Below, one piece after another: positions 12,431 to 23,434 of a stretch of DNA of 64,000 nucleotides. The stretch's first letter is position 1; each line of letters begins with the position of its first letter. The notes beneath the pieces are model-generated. The model had not been told where the DNA came from. It saw only the letters and a list, made by a program, of their open reading frames with translations, and ran no database searches. The stretch covers positions 310,001 through 374,000 of the forward strand of contig JAOZHS010000002.1 in the NCBI GenBank assembly GCA_026014745.1, read 5' to 3'. The stretch is from Candidatus Bathyarchaeota archaeon. GTDB taxonomy: Archaea; Thermoproteota; Bathyarchaeia; Bathyarchaeales; Bathycorpusculaceae. The position numbers were made by a program, and so were the translations under genes.

Positions 12431-12775
12431 TTAGCTATATTCTCGGAAGGTATGGCCGCAGTCGGTGCACCGCAGAAACTGAGTGGATGATTCGTCTGCG
12501 CCTCGAGTTTGTACCAACCAAACAAACACTGTGCTGTTGTTGCATTTTGGGCATTTGAAATGTATTGTTGGTTGGGTGCTTAGCTGTTTCTCCTTGTCGA
12601 TTACGGCAACCATCTGTTTGGGGTTATGCGGGATATTCTTTAAATCCACTTTACCCACGTTAACGTCTCGATTGGTGTAGCCGCATTTTTTGCAGGTCAA
12701 CACAAGCATAGCTTGCGTTCCTGTCTCAACAGCTTTTGTCGCTAGAATTGAACCACATTGGGGACAAAACTCCAT
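12431..12775 (-). CDS. tfs: Transcription factor S (TFIIS/RPB9-like)
   Basis: The 114-residue protein has two zinc ribbons: MEFCPQCGSIL...TCKKCGY at the N-terminus and FKCPKCNN...LRCTDCGHTFREY at the C-terminus. The second carries the acidic loop in QTRGADES, whose D-E pair reaches the RNA polymerase active site and triggers cleavage of backtracked transcripts. Length and layout match archaeal TFS. The ribosome-binding site GAGGT lies seven bases before the ATG. Confidence 0.93.
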   Translation of the reverse strand: MEFCPQCGSILATKAVETGTQAMLVLTCKKCGYTNRDVNVGKVDLKNIPHNPKQMVAVIDKEKQLSTQPTIHFKCPKCNNSTVFVWLVQTRGADESSTQFLRCTDCGHTFREYS

Positions 12776-13123
12776 TCAACATACCTCACATTTTCGGGGC
12801 TGTCAGTGTGGGGGTTAACCTTATGCAAGCAATTTTTAGGAAGGGAGAGGGAGAAACTTTTGCTGCATTGAAGTTAACCCTGATTACTGAAGCCTCCATT
12901 TTCGTTACCCACCATTTAGCTCAATTGAAAAATAAATAACAGTGTGACTGCACTCTGCCTACAACAACCGTGATCCATGGTATTTTTCAATATTTTTCTC
13001 TACAAAAAACATGGAAGAACTTTCTAAAGAGGGGCTCAAACTTTATGTAGTTGTTCAGGTTTTTTGTGAATCTAAGCACAATAGTATAGTGCCTTGATTT
13101 ACTCTTAGTGTAGGTGAAACTTT
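12776..13123. other. Divergent promoter region of tfs and the hdr-mvh operon
   Basis: This 348-base spacer must hold promoters in both directions. Two small plus-strand frames occur: ATG 12823 to 12939 (38 codons) and ATG 13011 to TGA 13097 (28 codons). The second ends 26 bases before hdrC and could be a leader peptide, but neither has a clear ribosome-binding site. GGTGA at 13113-13117 belongs to hdrC. Confidence 0.4.
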
Positions 13124-13678
13124 ATGGCTGAAGCAACAGCCCCAGTAACGTCCACAAAAGATCAGCCTATAAAAGCTTCCGAAATCGACCCCAAATTCAA
13201 ATACGAACTCCAAAAAATCCACGGAAGCGAATCAATTTTGAAATGTTTCCAGTGCGGAACATGTACCTCGGATTGTCCAGTAGCAAGATACAGCGATTCA
13301 TATCGACCCCGCACGCTAATCCACATGGCGCAGCTAGGCCTCAAAGAGCGCGTGCTCAGAAGCGATACGCTTTGGCTCTGTGCTGCCTGCTTCACCTGCA
13401 CTGACCGATGTCCCCAAGATGTCGAAGTTGCAAACGTCATACGAGTTTTCCGTAATCTCGCTATAGAAAAAGACTGTATCCCCCAAGTTTTCAAGGATCA
13501 AACCCAGAGCTTGCTTGAATCGGGCTACGCTTACAAAATCCCCGAGCTCAGAGTCAAAAAACGTGAATCTCTGGGGTTACCGCCACTGCCAAAGGGCGAT
13601 GCGGAAAACGTAAGGAAGGTCCTCAAAGGCGTAAAATATATTGAAAGAAACTCAGGAGCAAAATCCAGTGGGCAATAA
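13124..13678 (+). CDS. hdrC: Heterodisulfide reductase subunit C-like iron-sulfur protein
   Basis: The 184-residue soluble protein binds two [4Fe-4S] clusters through C41/C44/C47/C51 (CFQCGTCTSDCP) and C86/C89/C92/C96 (CAACFTCTDRCP). HdrC relays electrons to HdrB. The N-terminal 30 residues and the C-terminal KGVKYIERN tail lie outside the core. GGTGA at 13113-13117 supports the ATG. It is the first gene of the operon hdrC-hdrB-mvhG-mvhA, with overlapping genes throughout. Confidence 0.88.
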   Translation: MAEATAPVTSTKDQPIKASEIDPKFKYELQKIHGSESILKCFQCGTCTSDCPVARYSDSYRPRTLIHMAQLGLKERVLRSDTLWLCAACFTCTDRCPQDVEVANVIRVFRNLAIEKDCIPQVFKDQTQSLLESGYAYKIPELRVKKRESLGLPPLPKGDAENVRKVLKGVKYIERNSGAKSSGQ

Positions 13679-14561
13679 ATACCTAATTTTCCTCGGCTGC
13701 GCTATCCCCTACCGTGTCTCCAGTTATGAAATCAGCGCCCGTAAAGTCCTCACGGGACTCGGCGTAGAACTCGTCGAGATGCCAGAATTCAACTGCTGCG
13801 GACTCCCCCTTGACGCCGTAAGCCACGAAACAATGCTAATTCTCGCAGCCAAGAACCTCGCCATAGCCGAAAAGCAAGGCCTAAACATTCTAACATTATG
13901 CCCCGGATGCGCGGGAACCCTCAAAAAAGTTAACAAAATCCTAAAAGAAGACAAAACCCAACGAGACGAAGTCAACAGCCACCTAAAAGAGGCTAACCTC
14001 GAATTCAAAGGCACCATAGAAACTAAACATCTTCTCCAGTTCCTAAAGGAAGACGTCGGCTTAGAAAAAATCAAAGCCGCGGTCACCAACCCCCTTATAG
14101 GTCTAAATGTTGCTGAACACAACGGCTGCCATATCCTACGCCCCAAAGAATACATTGACTTTGATGACCCCGAAGACCCTCAAACCCTCAAAAACCTAAT
14201 TGAAGCAACAGGCGCCACCTGCCTCGATTATATTGATGAAACCGAATGCTGTGGTGCACCCAGCGTCGGTGTCAACGACAAAATCGCCTTATCTCTTGCT
14301 CGAGACAAACTTGACCACATAAAACAGGTCAACGCCCAAGCCTTAATCACCATATGTCCTTTCTGTCACATCATGTATGATACAAACGAATTGAGAATAG
14401 AAAAAATGTTTAATGAGGCCTATGGCATTCCCATACTGCACTATCCCCAACTGTTAGGATTAGCCATGGGCATGACTCCTGAAGAGTTAGCAATGCATGA
14501 ACTCAGAGTAAACCCAACAAAAATAATCCAACAAACCACCCAAGGAGCAAACAAACCGTGA
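13668..14561 (+). CDS. hdrB: Heterodisulfide reductase subunit B-like (double CCG domain)
   Basis: HdrB holds the catalytic site that reduces a disulfide, CoM-S-S-CoB in methanogens. Two CCG modules are complete: C11, C43-C44, C78/C81 and C154, C194-C195, C230/C233, counted from the GTG start at 13668. In HdrB these bind the two noncubane [4Fe-4S] clusters. GTG 13668 is chosen because AGGAG (13654-13658) lies nine bases upstream; an earlier TTG at 13641 would overlap hdrC further. Its substrate in a non-methanogen would be unknown. Confidence 0.87.
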   Translation: MGNKYLIFLGCAIPYRVSSYEISARKVLTGLGVELVEMPEFNCCGLPLDAVSHETMLILAAKNLAIAEKQGLNILTLCPGCAGTLKKVNKILKEDKTQRDEVNSHLKEANLEFKGTIETKHLLQFLKEDVGLEKIKAAVTNPLIGLNVAEHNGCHILRPKEYIDFDDPEDPQTLKNLIEATGATCLDYIDETECCGAPSVGVNDKIALSLARDKLDHIKQVNAQALITICPFCHIMYDTNELRIEKMFNEAYGIPILHYPQLLGLAMGMTPEELAMHELRVNPTKIIQQTTQGANKP

Positions 14562-15547
14562 CGCAAAACAAACTAAAAATAGCCTTTTACTGGGCTGCAA
14601 GCTGCGGCGGCTGCGAAATCGCCGTCTTAGACATAAACGAAAAAATCCTTGACGTTACCAAAATCGCTGACATCGTATTCTGGCCAGTAGCCTTAGACGT
14701 CAAATACAAAGACGTTGAAGCCATGGAAGACAAATACATTGACATCACCTTCTTCAACGGTTCCATCCGCAACAGTGAACAAGAACATATGGCAAAACTC
14801 CTACGAGCAAAAACCAAAACCTTGGTAGCGTTTGGCTCCTGCGCCCATGAAGGCTGCATTCCAGGCTTAGCTAACCTTAACAGCAAAAAAGAGGTATTCG
14901 AGCAAGTTTACCTTAAAGAAAAATCAAACGTTAACCCAAACGCGGTAACACCTAAAACCCAAAGCCAAGTTAAAGAAGGCACCCTAAAAATCCCCGAATT
15001 CTACGACACCGTCAAAACCCTATCCCAAACAGTAGAAGTCGACTACTTCCTTCCAGGCTGCCCACCGCCAGTTAAACTAATCGCCGCCGCCATCGACGCC
15101 ATCGCCAACAACAACTTACCCAAAAAAGGCTCCGTTCTTGCCCCTCCCAAAGCAGTCTGCGACGAGTGCCCCCGCAAACGCGAAAACAAAAAAATCGACA
15201 AAATCTACCGCGTCTACGAAAAAACTCCTGAACCCGAAAGGTGCCTCCTTGAACAAGGTATCCTCTGCATGGGACCCGCAACCCGAAGCGGCTGTGGCGC
15301 ACAATGCCTCAAAGTAGACATGCCATGCACTGGTTGCGGTGGAAAAGCCCCCAACGTTCCTGAACAGGGAGCAGCCATGATAACTGCGTTAGCCTCTATC
15401 CTTGGCTACGACAGTGTAGAAGGCAAAACCCAATACACCGAAAAAGAAATCGAAGATTTAATCAACCAAATAAAAGACCCCGTTGGCACCGTATACATGT
15501 ACAGTTTGCCATCTTCAATCCTTAAACGTAAGGTGATAAAAGAATGA
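14558..15547 (+). CDS. mvhG: F420-non-reducing [NiFe] hydrogenase small subunit (MvhG-like)
   Basis: The 329-residue subunit carries the electron-relay clusters of a group 3 hydrogenase. The N-terminus has AASCGGCE (C16, C19), the middle GSCAHEGCIPG and PGCPPP, completing the proximal cluster. The C-terminal part has many further cysteines (CDECP, LCMGPATRSGCGAQC, PCTGCGG) for medial and distal clusters. There is no Tat signal, so it is cytoplasmic. The GTG start overlaps the hdrB stop as GTGA, so translation is coupled. Confidence 0.88.
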   Translation: MTQNKLKIAFYWAASCGGCEIAVLDINEKILDVTKIADIVFWPVALDVKYKDVEAMEDKYIDITFFNGSIRNSEQEHMAKLLRAKTKTLVAFGSCAHEGCIPGLANLNSKKEVFEQVYLKEKSNVNPNAVTPKTQSQVKEGTLKIPEFYDTVKTLSQTVEVDYFLPGCPPPVKLIAAAIDAIANNNLPKKGSVLAPPKAVCDECPRKRENKKIDKIYRVYEKTPEPERCLLEQGILCMGPATRSGCGAQCLKVDMPCTGCGGKAPNVPEQGAAMITALASILGYDSVEGKTQYTEKEIEDLINQIKDPVGTVYMYSLPSSILKRKVIKE

Positions 15548-17001
15548 AAGAAATCCTAATTGACCCAATAACTCGGCTCGAAGGACACGGCAACGTATCC
15601 ATATTCCTCAACGACCAAGGCGAAGTAGAAAACGCCTACCTCAAAATCCCCGAACTAAGAGGATTTGAGAAGTTCTGCATCGGCAGACGAGCCGAACTCA
15701 TGCCCCAACTAACCACCCGCATCTGCGGAGTCTGCCCAGTCGCCCACCACTTCGCCGCAACCAAAGCACTTGACCAAGCATTCAACGTCGAAGTCCCATC
15801 CGCAGCAAAGAAACTCCGCGAACTCATGTACACAGCCTACTTCATCTACGACCACACACTACACTTCTACTACCTAGGCGGACCCGACTTCATCGTAGGC
15901 CCCGAAGCACCCCCAGAAAAACGAAACATCCTAGGCGTCATCGAAAAAGCAGGCATAGAAGTCGCCAAAGACGTCATCAAACACCGCGCCTACGGACAAA
16001 AAATCACCGAAATCATCGGCGGAAAAGCCACCCACCCCGTCTGCGGACTCCCCGGCGGCATATCCAAACCATTAAGCGAAGAAAACCGCCAACAAATCGA
16101 AACCATGGCATCCTCCTGCCGCAACTTCGCACAGTTCACCCTAAAACTCTTCCACCAAATCGTCCTAAGCAACAGCCAATACTTAGACATGATAACCAGC
16201 AAACCCTACACCATGCCCACCTACTACATGGGAACCGTTGACGAACACAACAAAGTCAACTTCTACGACGGCAAAACCCGAGTCGTAACCCCCAACGGAA
16301 ACGAATTCCTCAAATTCAACGCCCAAGACTACCTCCAACACATCGGCGAACACGTCGAAGAATGGACATACAGCAAGTTCCCCTACCTCAAAGCAGTCGG
16401 TTGGAAAGGAGAAGTCGCAGGCCCAGACAGCGGCATCTACCGCGTTGGACCCCTCGGCAGACTAAATGCCTCAAACGGCATGGCAACTCCGCTCGCACAG
16501 GCAGAATACGAAGAAATGTATAGCACCCTCGGCGGCAAACCTGTGCACAGCACACTCGCGTTCCATTGGGCACGCCTAATCGAGCTCCTTTACGCTACCG
16601 AACGATGCATGGAACTCGTCACTGACCCCGAAATCACCAGCACCAACGTCCGCAACAAACCCACCCAGGAACCCACCGAAGGCGTCGGCATCGTCGAAGC
16701 AGCCCGCGGCACCCTCATCCACCACTTCACACTCACCCCAGATGCACTCGTCAAAGACGTCAACATGATAGTCGCCACCACCAACAATTACCCAGCCATC
16801 TGCATGAGCATCCGCGACGCAGCCAAAGGCCTAATCCACGACGGCAAAATCGAGCAAGGCATCCTCAACAAAGTCGAAATGGCATTCCGCGCCTACGACC
16901 CCTGCTTCGGCTGCGCAACCCACGCCGCAACCGGACAAATGCCCCTAACAGTCGAGGTTTTCGACGCACAAAAACGGTTACTTGACAGCGTTAGCCGTTA
17001 A
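15544..17001 (+). CDS. mvhA: F420-non-reducing [NiFe] hydrogenase large subunit (MvhA-like)
   Basis: The 485-residue subunit contains the Ni-Fe active site. The four ligands are in RICGVC (C61, C64) and DPCFGC (C454, C457). A 25-residue extension after H460 would be removed by a maturation protease, as in most [NiFe] enzymes. It oxidises or evolves H2, passing electrons through MvhG. The ATG overlaps the mvhG stop (ATGA). The usual electron-transfer partner MvhD and flavin subunit HdrA are not in the window. Confidence 0.9.
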   Translation: MKEILIDPITRLEGHGNVSIFLNDQGEVENAYLKIPELRGFEKFCIGRRAELMPQLTTRICGVCPVAHHFAATKALDQAFNVEVPSAAKKLRELMYTAYFIYDHTLHFYYLGGPDFIVGPEAPPEKRNILGVIEKAGIEVAKDVIKHRAYGQKITEIIGGKATHPVCGLPGGISKPLSEENRQQIETMASSCRNFAQFTLKLFHQIVLSNSQYLDMITSKPYTMPTYYMGTVDEHNKVNFYDGKTRVVTPNGNEFLKFNAQDYLQHIGEHVEEWTYSKFPYLKAVGWKGEVAGPDSGIYRVGPLGRLNASNGMATPLAQAEYEEMYSTLGGKPVHSTLAFHWARLIELLYATERCMELVTDPEITSTNVRNKPTQEPTEGVGIVEAARGTLIHHFTLTPDALVKDVNMIVATTNNYPAICMSIRDAAKGLIHDGKIEQGILNKVEMAFRAYDPCFGCATHAATGQMPLTVEVFDAQKRLLDSVSR

Positions 17002-17005
17002 CTTT

Positions 17006-17046
17006 GTGCCTTTTGGCACCCAGCTTTTTATTTTTAACAATTTTTT
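17006..17046 (+). terminator. Hairpin plus T-tract ending the hdr-mvh operon
   Basis: GTGCC-TTTT-GGCAC forms a perfect five-base-pair hairpin five bases after the mvhA stop, followed by a long T-rich run from 17025 to 17046. The convergent flippase gene ends at 17060. Confidence 0.75.
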
Positions 17047-17059
17047 GCAAATCGGCGTT

Positions 17060-18643
17060 TTAGACCCTTAGCAGAGTCATCAACTTCTCAACCAAAACGA
17101 GCAGCCTACAGAAAAACCTGCCAATAGCCCCCAAACCTTCAACCATACCCCTCAAATTAGCCAAATCCGAACGGGTAATTGAGCGAGTAAGCAACATAGC
17201 AACAAGCACCACCAAAACAAAGAAGGGGACGCCTACAACGAGGAGAAGCCAACTCGCCAAAGGCAAAGCAGCAACAACAAGATACGTTAAAACGCCAGCC
17301 ACGGCTGAAGAAAGCAGGATTTTAGCTGAAGAAACCCAATCCACAACTACGCCATAAGTTTTTTTGATAAACCCTAAACCGATAAAGATGCCAGGTAGAA
17401 CAGCAGTCAACGTTGAAAAGATAAGGCCATACACGCCGAAATTCATAATCAAAAGATAACCCATCGGGAAACCTATCAGCCCAGTTAATAGGCCCAGCTT
17501 CATCATGTAGGTTGTTTGGCCCTGACCATTCAGAAACCCTGTTAAACTAAGATACCCAAAGGCGGTATAGAAATATTGAATCGCTAATAGCGCCAAAAAA
17601 AGCGGAGCCAAAGTATAGGTGGCGCCGAAAAGTGTTTCAACACCCGGCGTAGCCAAACACATCACTAAGGCAGTGACTGGAACCACAACAAAAGCGGCAT
17701 ATTTAACAGAGAACTGAAAAACGTTCCTAAGAACAATCTTATCTTTCTCTGCGTCGAGTTTCGAGAAGGCAGGAAACATCATCGTCGTAACGGGAATTGC
17801 GAAAAAAGTGATTAACACAACAAAATTCATTGCGATACTATAGTTGCCTATAGTTACGTTTTCTGTGGTGTAGTAGATGGGGAGCAGAAAGGCGTAGAAT
17901 TGTGGAAGCAGCAGTGTAACAATTGTTGCAAGCGATAGGGGTAAACAATACTTCAGCAGGGTAGTCAAGTATGCCGTTATTTGCAGCTTATTTGAGGGTG
18001 GTTTGGGTAGCTTTCGATAGATAACCAAAACAAGACCGACCCCGATTATGCTGGCAATAAAATTACCCGCTAAAAAGCCAACAGAGGCTCCAGCCGTTCC
18101 CAGACCTAAAGCAACAAGGGCTATGATAAGCGCAGTTTTTGAGATGCTTTGACCAATAATCATGATGCTGTTGAGTTCCATTTTCTCAACCCCAGTAAAA
18201 GCCGCCGTAGCAGCATTCACCAAGCCGTTGGCGAAGATAGAAAAAGACACAATTTGTATAAGCGAAGCAATCTCGGGACGATTAAACACGCTTGCAGCCA
18301 AAAAATCAGCCAAGAAAAAGGATACAACCGAAAGAACAAGGCCTATTATCATTTCAAAGATTATGCCCGTAATATAGATGCTGCGGATTTCATCAAGCCT
18401 GCTCTCGGCACGGTACTGCGCGGTAAATCGAACCATGGCAGAGGTTATGCCCCAATCACGGAAAACCTGAATAAACGTCGGAACCGTCAAAACGACAGCG
18501 TACAATCCATAGAGGTCTGAGCCGAGGAGACGTGCAATGAAAATCGTTCCTACTGACAGAATTAGCGTTGAAATTACTAATCCCCAAAGCAGGTGAAAAC
18601 TTCCTGCAGTTGAAACCTTGGCAATATCAACAGCTTTACTCAT
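17060..18643 (-). CDS. Polysaccharide/oligosaccharide flippase (MOP superfamily), copy 1
   Basis: The 527-residue protein has about 14 membrane helices and the start LLWGLVISTLILSVGTIFIA typical of Wzx-like flippases. These move lipid-linked glycans across the membrane. It is clearly paralogous to the protein at 21845-23434, with the same start MSKAVDIAK and nearly the same length. A short C-terminal stretch (YLVVAALPLASWLLLVVGVP) is identical, matching a near-identical DNA block. The two copies flank two nucleotide-sugar dehydrogenase genes. Confidence 0.85.
   Translation of the reverse strand: MSKAVDIAKVSTAGSFHLLWGLVISTLILSVGTIFIARLLGSDLYGLYAVVLTVPTFIQVFRDWGITSAMVRFTAQYRAESRLDEIRSIYITGIIFEMIIGLVLSVVSFFLADFLAASVFNRPEIASLIQIVSFSIFANGLVNAATAAFTGVEKMELNSIMIIGQSISKTALIIALVALGLGTAGASVGFLAGNFIASIIGVGLVLVIYRKLPKPPSNKLQITAYLTTLLKYCLPLSLATIVTLLLPQFYAFLLPIYYTTENVTIGNYSIAMNFVVLITFFAIPVTTMMFPAFSKLDAEKDKIVLRNVFQFSVKYAAFVVVPVTALVMCLATPGVETLFGATYTLAPLFLALLAIQYFYTAFGYLSLTGFLNGQGQTTYMMKLGLLTGLIGFPMGYLLIMNFGVYGLIFSTLTAVLPGIFIGLGFIKKTYGVVVDWVSSAKILLSSAVAGVLTYLVVAALPLASWLLLVVGVPFFVLVVLVAMLLTRSITRSDLANLRGMVEGLGAIGRFFCRLLVLVEKLMTLLRV
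17217..17290 (-). repeat. Near-identical DNA block shared with flippase copy 2
   Basis: About 74 bases match 22009-22082 with only two differences, while the rest of the two genes differs at many positions. This local identity suggests recent gene conversion between the paralogues. Confidence 0.7.
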
Positions 18644-21844: not shown

Positions 21845-23434
21845 TTAGCCCTGCTTACCCAAAAGTTTCATCAACTTTTCAAGAATTATTAGCAGCTTGT
21901 TAATAAAACGGCTAAAAGACCCCAAACCTTTAACCATAGACCTCAAAGCTACCACGTCGGATTGTGTAATTGACCGAGTAAATAACAACGCGGCAAGCAC
22001 AACCACAACAAAGAAGGGGACGCCTACAACGAGGAGAAGCCAACTTGCCAAAGGCAAAGCAGCAACAACAAGATACGTCAAAAGCCCAGCCACAGCCGAA
22101 GACAGAAGAATTTTAACTGAAGAAACCCAATCCAGGCCTATATTGTAGGTTTTTTTTATGAAACGTAAACCCATAAAGATGCTCGGAAGCCCAGCGGTTA
22201 AGGTTGTAATAATGAGACCTAAAACTCCATAATTCATTATCAAGAAGTAACCCACCGGGAAACCAATTGTGCCAGTCAATAAACTTAGTTTTAACACGTA
22301 ACTCGTTTTACCCTGGCCATTCAGAAAACCGCTTACACTTAAATTACCAAAAGCTGCATACAAGTACTGAATCGACATAAGTGTCAAAAAAAGAGGCGCC
22401 AAAACGTAAGTTTCACCAAAAAGCGTTTCGACACCTGGCCCAGCCAAACTCATAACTAGAAAGGTAACAGGAACCACAATAAGAGAGGCATATTTAACAG
22501 AGAACCTAAAGATGTTTCCTAGATCCACTTTATCTTTTTCTGCATCCAACTTAGAGAACGCAGGAAACATCATAGTGCTTATGGGCATGGTGAAGAAGCC
22601 GATGAGAACTACAAAATTAAGCGCTATGCCATAATTTCCGATGGGAACATTGTCAGTTACGTAATGTATGGGAAGCAGAAATGCATAGAACTGAGGAAGC
22701 AAAGTTGTGATAATAATACCAAAAGACAGGGGCAAACAGTAACTCAACATGGTAGTTAAGTATTCTTTTAGATGCAGTTGTTTCGACACTGGCTTCGGCA
22801 GGCTGCGATAGATAACGCTGACCAAGGAGATTCCGATTATGCTTGCAATAAAGAGGCCAACGGTGTAACCTATCGTGGCTCCAGCAGTACCCATACCAAA
22901 AGCCACCAGCACGATTATAATTGCTGTTTTAGCAATATTTTGACCAACAATCATTATACTGTTTAGCGCCATTCTTTCATAGCCTGTGAAAACAGCTGTA
23001 GCCGCCGTGACTAGGCCGCTGGCAAAAATGGAAAAAGAAGCGATTTGTATAAACGGAGCAAGCAGTGGCCGGTTAAATACAGTAATCGCTAAGAAATCAG
23101 CGGAGAAAAAGGATAAAACCGAAAGCAACAAACCTAGTATAACCTCAAATATTATTCCGGTAAGGAATATACTGCGGATTTCATCAAATCGACCTTCAGC
23201 TCGATACTGAGCGGTAAACCGGATCATAGCCGAGTTTATTCCCCAGTCACGAAAAACCTGCATAATTGTTGGAACAATTAAAACGATCGTATACAAACCG
23301 TAAAGATCTGAACCAAGAAGTCGAGCGATAAATATAGTGCCTATGGAGGAGATAAGGGTTGAAATTACCAAACCCCAAAGCAGATGAAAACTTCCAGTTG
23401 TTGAAGCTTTTGCGATGTCAACTGCTTTACTCAT
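21845..23434 (-). CDS. Polysaccharide/oligosaccharide flippase (MOP superfamily), copy 2
   Basis: The 529-residue protein is the paralogue of the flippase at 17060-18643, collinear along its length, with about 14 membrane helices. It likely exports a related but distinct lipid-linked glycan, or one copy may be redundant. The C-terminal extension KLLIILEKLMKLLGKQG is basic. It is convergent with the UDP-sugar dehydrogenase gene, which could supply one of its glycan's sugars. Confidence 0.85.
   Translation of the reverse strand: MSKAVDIAKASTTGSFHLLWGLVISTLISSIGTIFIARLLGSDLYGLYTIVLIVPTIMQVFRDWGINSAMIRFTAQYRAEGRFDEIRSIFLTGIIFEVILGLLLSVLSFFSADFLAITVFNRPLLAPFIQIASFSIFASGLVTAATAVFTGYERMALNSIMIVGQNIAKTAIIIVLVAFGMGTAGATIGYTVGLFIASIIGISLVSVIYRSLPKPVSKQLHLKEYLTTMLSYCLPLSFGIIITTLLPQFYAFLLPIHYVTDNVPIGNYGIALNFVVLIGFFTMPISTMMFPAFSKLDAEKDKVDLGNIFRFSVKYASLIVVPVTFLVMSLAGPGVETLFGETYVLAPLFLTLMSIQYLYAAFGNLSVSGFLNGQGKTSYVLKLSLLTGTIGFPVGYFLIMNYGVLGLIITTLTAGLPSIFMGLRFIKKTYNIGLDWVSSVKILLSSAVAGLLTYLVVAALPLASWLLLVVGVPFFVVVVLAALLFTRSITQSDVVALRSMVKGLGSFSRFINKLLIILEKLMKLLGKQG
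22009..22082 (-). repeat. Near-identical DNA block shared with flippase copy 1
   Basis: This is the partner of 17217-17290, with two differences in about 74 bases. It encodes the TLPLASWLLLVVGVP-like helix region near the C-terminus of the flippase. Confidence 0.7.

Follow-up and report, generated by a model that had tools for sequence, protein, structure and literature searches.

The window analyzed here is a 64,000-nucleotide stretch of “Candidatus Bathyarchaeota archaeon” (assembly GCA_026014745.1, contig JAOZHS010000002.1, positions 310001 to 374000, here contig C2 of genome G000, which comprises 2.7 Mb in three contigs and is 97.5% complete). It contains an isolated four-gene operon, hdrC-hdrB-mvhG-mvhA, at positions 13124 to 17001, with all genes on the plus strand and without hdrA or mvhD. 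A sequence-only reading of this stretch noted the absence of HdrA and MvhD from the operon, which is correct; both are present in the genome. The two proteins are fused and moved, being encoded as a single gene of 817 residues on a different contig (C1:1132500-1134950), and genes for all parts of a putative MvhD/HdrABC-coupled hydrogenase are therefore present. We consider it likely (probability of roughly three in four) that the operon encodes the hydrogenase and disulfide halves of an Hdr-Mvh complex whose bifurcating and docking part comes in trans from the fused HdrA-MvhD. The enzyme would thus probably be complete, encoded at two separate loci.

The fused HdrA-MvhD protein and its polyferredoxin

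A search of the genome for the FlpD/MvhD domain found it at C1:1134498, within a long reading frame, and twice in one tandem-FlpD protein on contig C2. The long frame encodes HdrA at residues ~17 to 660 and MvhD at ~664 to 798 (Pfam places FlpD at 667 to 790 of 817), and it is the sole HdrA with a flavin domain found in the genome. A second HdrA for the operon was rejected, as the other matches span just the ferredoxin or FlpD part of the query, and the fused gene on C1 rejects a true absence of HdrA and MvhD. Of the two options offered by the sequence-only reading, a location elsewhere in the genome is thus the one that was found. The tandem-FlpD gene belongs to an overlapping operon (L005:7440-10904; C2, ~698.4 to 701.9 kb) that also encodes an FAD/NAD protein resembling NfnA or dihydroorotate dehydrogenase and a GltA/NfnB-like protein. 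The operon possibly encodes an NAD(P)H module, perhaps with MvhD-like docking.

Upstream of the fused gene, and overlapping it, is a gene for a FwdF-like polyferredoxin of 298 residues with six cluster motifs (counted by eye). Among solved structures, this protein best matches the FmdF/FwdF chain in 7bkb, an Hdr-Fmd supercomplex. A polyferredoxin gene occupies the same position and strand in 54/54 type Ia hdrA loci (51 of 58 genomes), at a distance of ≤40 bp or overlapping in 49 of them. At one locus (L163:9497-9661, genome G042), a small piece resembling hdrB (49% over 165 bp) lies between the polyferredoxin gene and hdrA and is perhaps a remnant of a linked operon.

HdrA with a fused MvhD has been called type Ia, and the same work identifies K409 and E356 as residues that maintain flavin adenine dinucleotide (FAD) in its bifurcating state (PMC12054007); Cys197 is described as a ligand shared across the HdrA dimer (PMC9012536). 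The protein reported here carries the C-terminal MvhD fusion of type Ia (HdrA2) and keeps all three residues, as K421, E369, and C209, respectively. Across 54 type Ia HdrA loci in 51 relatives, E369 and C209 are conserved in 54/54 and K421 in 53/54, with the remaining locus outside the alignment coverage. The cysteines of the MvhD domain that align with those of 5odc_D are also kept, except for one that is a leucine. The fused protein scores 1073 bits against the NCBIfam HdrA2 model NF040770, under the cut-off of 1100; thus, we term the protein “HdrA2-like” and do not file it under NF040770.

The four-gene operon

Family scans and matches to solved structures concur on the predicted identities of the four genes. 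These and the two flanking elements are as follows (window positions).

13035..13049, plus strand: TATA-like promoter element (CTCAAACTTTATGTA), ~75 nt before hdrC; best-conserved block in the alignment of hdrC upstream regions
13124..13678, plus strand: hdrC, two-[4Fe-4S] subunit; TIGR03290, 127 bits (cut-off, 160); matches HdrC in the HdrABC structures 7bkb, 8rvu, and 5odc
13641..14561, plus strand: hdrB, disulfide-reducing subunit with two CCG domains; TIGR03288, 286 bits (cut-off, 345); matches HdrB of 9sfi, 8rvu, and 5odc
14558..15547, plus strand: mvhG, [NiFe] hydrogenase small subunit; VhuG model, 217 bits (cut-off, 450), and PF01058; near full-length alignment with MvhG of 5odc
15544..17001, plus strand: mvhA, [NiFe] hydrogenase large subunit; VhuA model, 430 bits (cut-off, 800), and PF00374; aligns with 7t2r, 5odc, and 9sw2
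17006..17019, plus strand: hairpin resembling a terminator, with a T-tract after it, between mvhA and the convergent gene; from a scan whose yield was not above shuffled expectation

NCBIfam and Pfam name the products HdrC, HdrB, VhuG/MvhG-like, and VhuA/MvhA-like, with VhuA and VhuG the best NCBIfam models for MvhA and MvhG. All four proteins score under the equivalog cut-offs, as divergent members do. PF02754 occurs in two stretches of HdrB, and HdrC has a dicluster domain with two [4Fe-4S] motifs, features of the soluble forms of these subunits. Reading of the alignments shows that MvhA, MvhG, HdrB, and HdrC have their metal-ligand and cluster motifs. MvhA carries both CxxC motifs, RICGVC and DPCFGC, of the N- and C-terminal nickel-ligand type, and both align with 7t2r_D from its top match in the PDB, 7t2r; matches of MvhA and MvhG also include 5odc, 9sw2, and 9sfi.

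The start codon of hdrB is either TTG at 13641 or, more likely, GTG at 13668, so that hdrC and hdrB overlap by 38 bp or 11 bp, while hdrB/mvhG and mvhG/mvhA overlap by 4 bp each. The upstream gene (12431-12775) is divergent and the downstream gene (17060-18643) convergent, and thus the four-gene unit stands alone, bearing out the overlapping unit read from the sequence. A promoter role for the TATA-like element is suggested by its conservation in the window and 18 other loci, aligned and read by eye. The single terminator claimed by the same reading is plausible: the hairpin with its T-tract exists, but the scan for such sites returned 6 against a shuffle mean of 8.7 and hence no excess. The convergent gene is one of two near-alike flippase-like genes (17060-18643 and 21845-23434; 527 and 529 residues) that flank two genes resembling UDP-sugar dehydrogenases (assigned by eye).

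Occurrence and origin of the reduced operon

We surveyed 61 genomes (G000 and 60 relatives), of which 32 belong to the same genus (g1); these are draft assemblies, in which gaps may hide genes. MvhA was matched in 55 of the 61 (E ≤ 0.001, which includes distant paralogues), HdrA-MvhD in 58 (E ≤ 1e-100), and HdrB in 55 (E ≤ 1e-20). Wherever the reduced operon was sampled, the fused HdrA-MvhD was also found (17/17 genomes by hand count: 16 in the genus and G032 from a sister genus). HdrA matches at E ≤ 1e-100 number no more than one per genus genome except in G008, where the second HdrA is on a different contig from the mvhA orthologue, and G022, which has more than one match and no mvhA orthologue. 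Therefore, the remaining partner is the fused protein.

These results bear on the other option of the sequence-only reading, in which MvhGA would pass electrons straight to HdrCB as a non-bifurcating H2:disulfide reductase. The overlap of the four genes in one unit without hdrA fits such an enzyme, and direct partnerships between HdrB and hydrogenases have been proposed for other archaea, although the published cases are described as group 4 rather than group 3c hydrogenases (PMC9723716). However, an intact HdrA-MvhD accompanies the operon in G000 and in every other sampled genome that bears it, and related operons have hdrA and mvhD adjoining the same four genes. In addition, the MvhG is of the kind that works with MvhD in 5odc, where the two subunits are in contact. 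Moreover, the loss seen among relatives is the opposite one, with hdrCB and HdrA-MvhD kept and hydrogenase genes not found in 10/32 genus genomes (hand count). We therefore regard the direct route as unsupported and very unlikely.

In the genus, hand counts give an mvhA orthologue (≥79%) in 16 genomes, hdrB in 28, and HdrA-MvhD in 30. Twelve genomes thus hold hdrB without an mvhA orthologue, 10 of them with HdrA-MvhD, and beside hdrB G011 retains a short, stop-containing mvhA remnant of 29 residues. Of the parts, then, the hydrogenase is lost most easily, allowing for genes hidden by draft assemblies. This pattern (hdrB in 28/32 and mvhA in 16/32), the G011 remnant, the HdrA score of 1073 against the HdrA2 cut-off of 1100, and the two proteins with an FrhB/FdhB C-terminal domain encoded in G000 all fit an alternative in which HdrA-MvhD, the polyferredoxin, and HdrCB make up an enzyme of the HdrA2B2C2 type that depends on F420H2 or ferredoxin, with MvhGA an occasional add-on rather than the main electron source. 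On the other side, mvhG and mvhA are intact in the window and overlap with hdrB as one unit, and F420H2 binding is putative. This is a real but lesser possibility.

Related operons, drawn from 73 loci of named relatives plus further unnamed ones, show a second state in which an HdrA of ~1000 residues and a separate MvhD are encoded immediately upstream of hdrC. A type III hdrA with mvhADG has been reported in Bathyarchaeota (PMC12054007). An assignment of the long HdrA to type III with a GltD insert was rejected here: in L202, the one protein checked, Pfam gives two flavin modules, and the FlpD and GltD-like genes are separate and further upstream.

All 23 Bathyarchaeal operons that lack hdrA-mvhD upstream fall into a single clade (support 100/99; 200/200 bootstrap trees) in a tree of joined HdrC, HdrB, MvhG, and MvhA with 38 rows, rooted on the Njordarchaeal L115. 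That tree left out the long-branch L203 and the Thermoplasmata L119 and L138, which have hdrA upstream and mvhD downstream and had been mislabelled as lacking upstream hdrA in an earlier combined tree. The earlier tree, from which L104, L105, and L093 were dropped as duplicates, recovered the same clade (SH-aLRT [Shimodaira-Hasegawa-like approximate likelihood ratio test], 99). By the approximately unbiased test, a clade uniting L085 with the reduced operons was not rejected (P = 0.41). Given the L115 root, the single clade therefore indicates one loss of the operon's own long hdrA and mvhD in the clade ancestor, and the description of the operon as reduced was apt in this evolutionary sense. 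After the loss, HdrCB-MvhGA probably passed to the remote HdrA-MvhD, a change of partner. The same HdrCB family attaches to either module, as seen from G049 and G055, in which the gene order is polyferredoxin-hdrC-hdrB-hdrA, followed by mvhD where the contig extends that far, and whose HdrB groups with that of an mvhGA-linked operon from the same family (support 97/91). In the MvhA tree, the mvhA genes of Methanomassiliicoccales and of two metagenome-assembled genomes labelled Euryarchaeota (L107, L112, L113, and L132) nest inside the Bathyarchaeal clade, which suggests horizontal transfer of mvhGA.

Across the clade's 22 further operons, the four genes have stayed together as a block, with identities per protein mostly between 70 and 88%. 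This conservation, together with intact genes and retained catalytic and cluster motifs, speaks against hdrCB-mvhGA being a decaying remnant while HdrA-MvhD and its polyferredoxin serve some other complex, for example, with the FlpD-FlpD/NfnAB-like operon. The presence of that operon in the genome would fit such a role, as would G039 and G046, which keep HdrA-MvhD with no HdrB at E ≤ 1e-20, but we consider it very unlikely.

Proposed electron flow and known systems

As a soluble group 3c-type Hdr-Mvh complex, with MvhG-MvhA as the hydrogenase half and HdrC-HdrB as the disulfide half, the assembly would split H2 at MvhA and pass electrons through MvhG and the [2Fe-2S] MvhD domain to the FAD of HdrA, where bifurcation would occur. 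One branch would run through HdrC and HdrB to a putative disulfide-like acceptor. The other would run through the ferredoxin domains of HdrA to ferredoxin or to the FwdF-like polyferredoxin encoded beside hdrA, and from there probably on to formylmethanofuran dehydrogenase and the Wood-Ljungdahl branch. The genome encodes two copies of FwdB as well as CdhA and proteins of the FrhB type; one FrhB-type gene (L214:1150-3397; C1, ~12.6 to 14.9 kb) lies a few kilobases from CdhA, beside genes resembling methylenetetrahydrofolate reductase and CofE (both named by eye).

The organism, a soil-type archaeon, fits the non-methanogen supposed by the sequence-only reading: mcrA was not found in the genome, and methanogenesis was rejected on that basis. 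A search for comA also gave no match in G000, a weak test given that the same search was silent in the Methanosarcina acetivorans control. M. acetivorans makes coenzyme M (CoM) by another route. Based on these two markers, the heterodisulfide of CoM and coenzyme B (CoM-S-S-CoB) is unlikely to be the acceptor. One study already found it unclear which disulfide Hdr reduces where a Bathyarchaeal genome encodes both MvhADG and HdrABC (PMC7886697), and another has termed unclear what most of the hydrogenases annotated in these genomes do, group 3c included (PMC9534799).

The closest parallel is HdrA2B2C2 of M. acetivorans (MA2867-2868 and MA4236-4237), in which an HdrA-MvhD fusion is encoded beside a polyferredoxin gene and hdrC-hdrB is unlinked (PMC9963511, PMC5296606). 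Published work describes two operons, one for HdrA2 with the polyferredoxin and one for HdrC2B2 (PMC9963511), recombinant subunits that form an active complex (PMC5296606), and coordinate expression of separate hdrA-pfd and hdrCB loci (PMC2838876). That enzyme uses F420H2 and ferredoxin, with no hydrogenase named among its loci, whereas mvhG-mvhA follows hdrCB in the Bathyarchaeal operon. The polyferredoxin gene is upstream of hdrA here but downstream of “hdrA1” in M. acetivorans according to PMC2838876, and mcrA and comA were not found here. Methanothermococcus HdrABC-MvhAGD (5odc) and the Hdr-Fwd/Fmd supercomplexes (7bkb, 9sw2-9sw6, and 9sfi) provide matching chains for all six subunits; they differ from the present system, in which HdrA is fused to MvhD and CoM-S-S-CoB is an unlikely acceptor. 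The full Bathyarchaeal hdrA-mvhD-hdrC-hdrB-mvhG-mvhA operons (L085, L098-L100, L103-L105, L198, L199, L202, L204, and others) share the same four-gene block and order but have an HdrA of their own, ~1000 residues long and with two flavin modules (type II-like; Pfam on one), and a separate upstream MvhD.

Several observations weigh against a two-locus complex driven by H2. In M. acetivorans, HdrA2 works with F420H2 and no hydrogenase, so that input of H2 through the fused MvhD is putative. The upstream regions of hdrC and HdrA-MvhD share no visible motif beyond the TATA-like boxes conserved in both sets (alignment by eye, without statistics). HdrA-MvhD is near-universal (58/61 genomes), so its co-occurrence with the operon weighs little by itself. 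G014 and G028 keep hdrCB with no FlpD/MvhD domain and no HdrA at E ≤ 1e-100, and with G039 and G046, which show the converse, they indicate that neither HdrCB nor HdrA-MvhD is bound to the other, gaps in these drafts being possible. In G014 and G028 (L176 and L182), hdrC-hdrB may have another partner, or the assemblies may be incomplete. The sequence-only reading would have settled for a simple operon split if an hdrA-mvhD operon with matching co-expression lay elsewhere in the genome. The gene part of this stands, as the fused gene behind its polyferredoxin gene on the other contig; co-expression, like the physical complex and the direction of electron flow, is something we infer.

A more specific scenario, which we put forward tentatively, is that after the one loss HdrCB-MvhGA was rewired to an HdrA2-type HdrA-MvhD that is F420H2-fed elsewhere. 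The result would be a hybrid, H2-driven bifurcating Mvh-Hdr-Fwd-like assembly in a non-methanogen, reducing another disulfide and passing low-potential electrons via the FwdF-like polyferredoxin to formylmethanofuran dehydrogenase. The two-locus split is already known from M. acetivorans, and it is the history, a single loss and a probable partner change, that is new; literature searches, confined to open-licence papers, turned up neither a single hdrA loss from a Bathyarchaeal operon nor an HdrA2-like protein as partner of Mvh in that group.

Finding HdrA-MvhD at a second locus closes what looked like a gap in how an abundant group of uncultured archaea conserves energy; annotation from the operon alone would have pointed, wrongly, to an enzyme that does not bifurcate. 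Should the partner change prove true, it would provide a well-placed case, with one loss in one clade, of a bifurcating complex swapping its flavin core, and the defined six-gene set would make the question of which disulfide Hdr reduces in non-methanogenic Bathyarchaeia testable.

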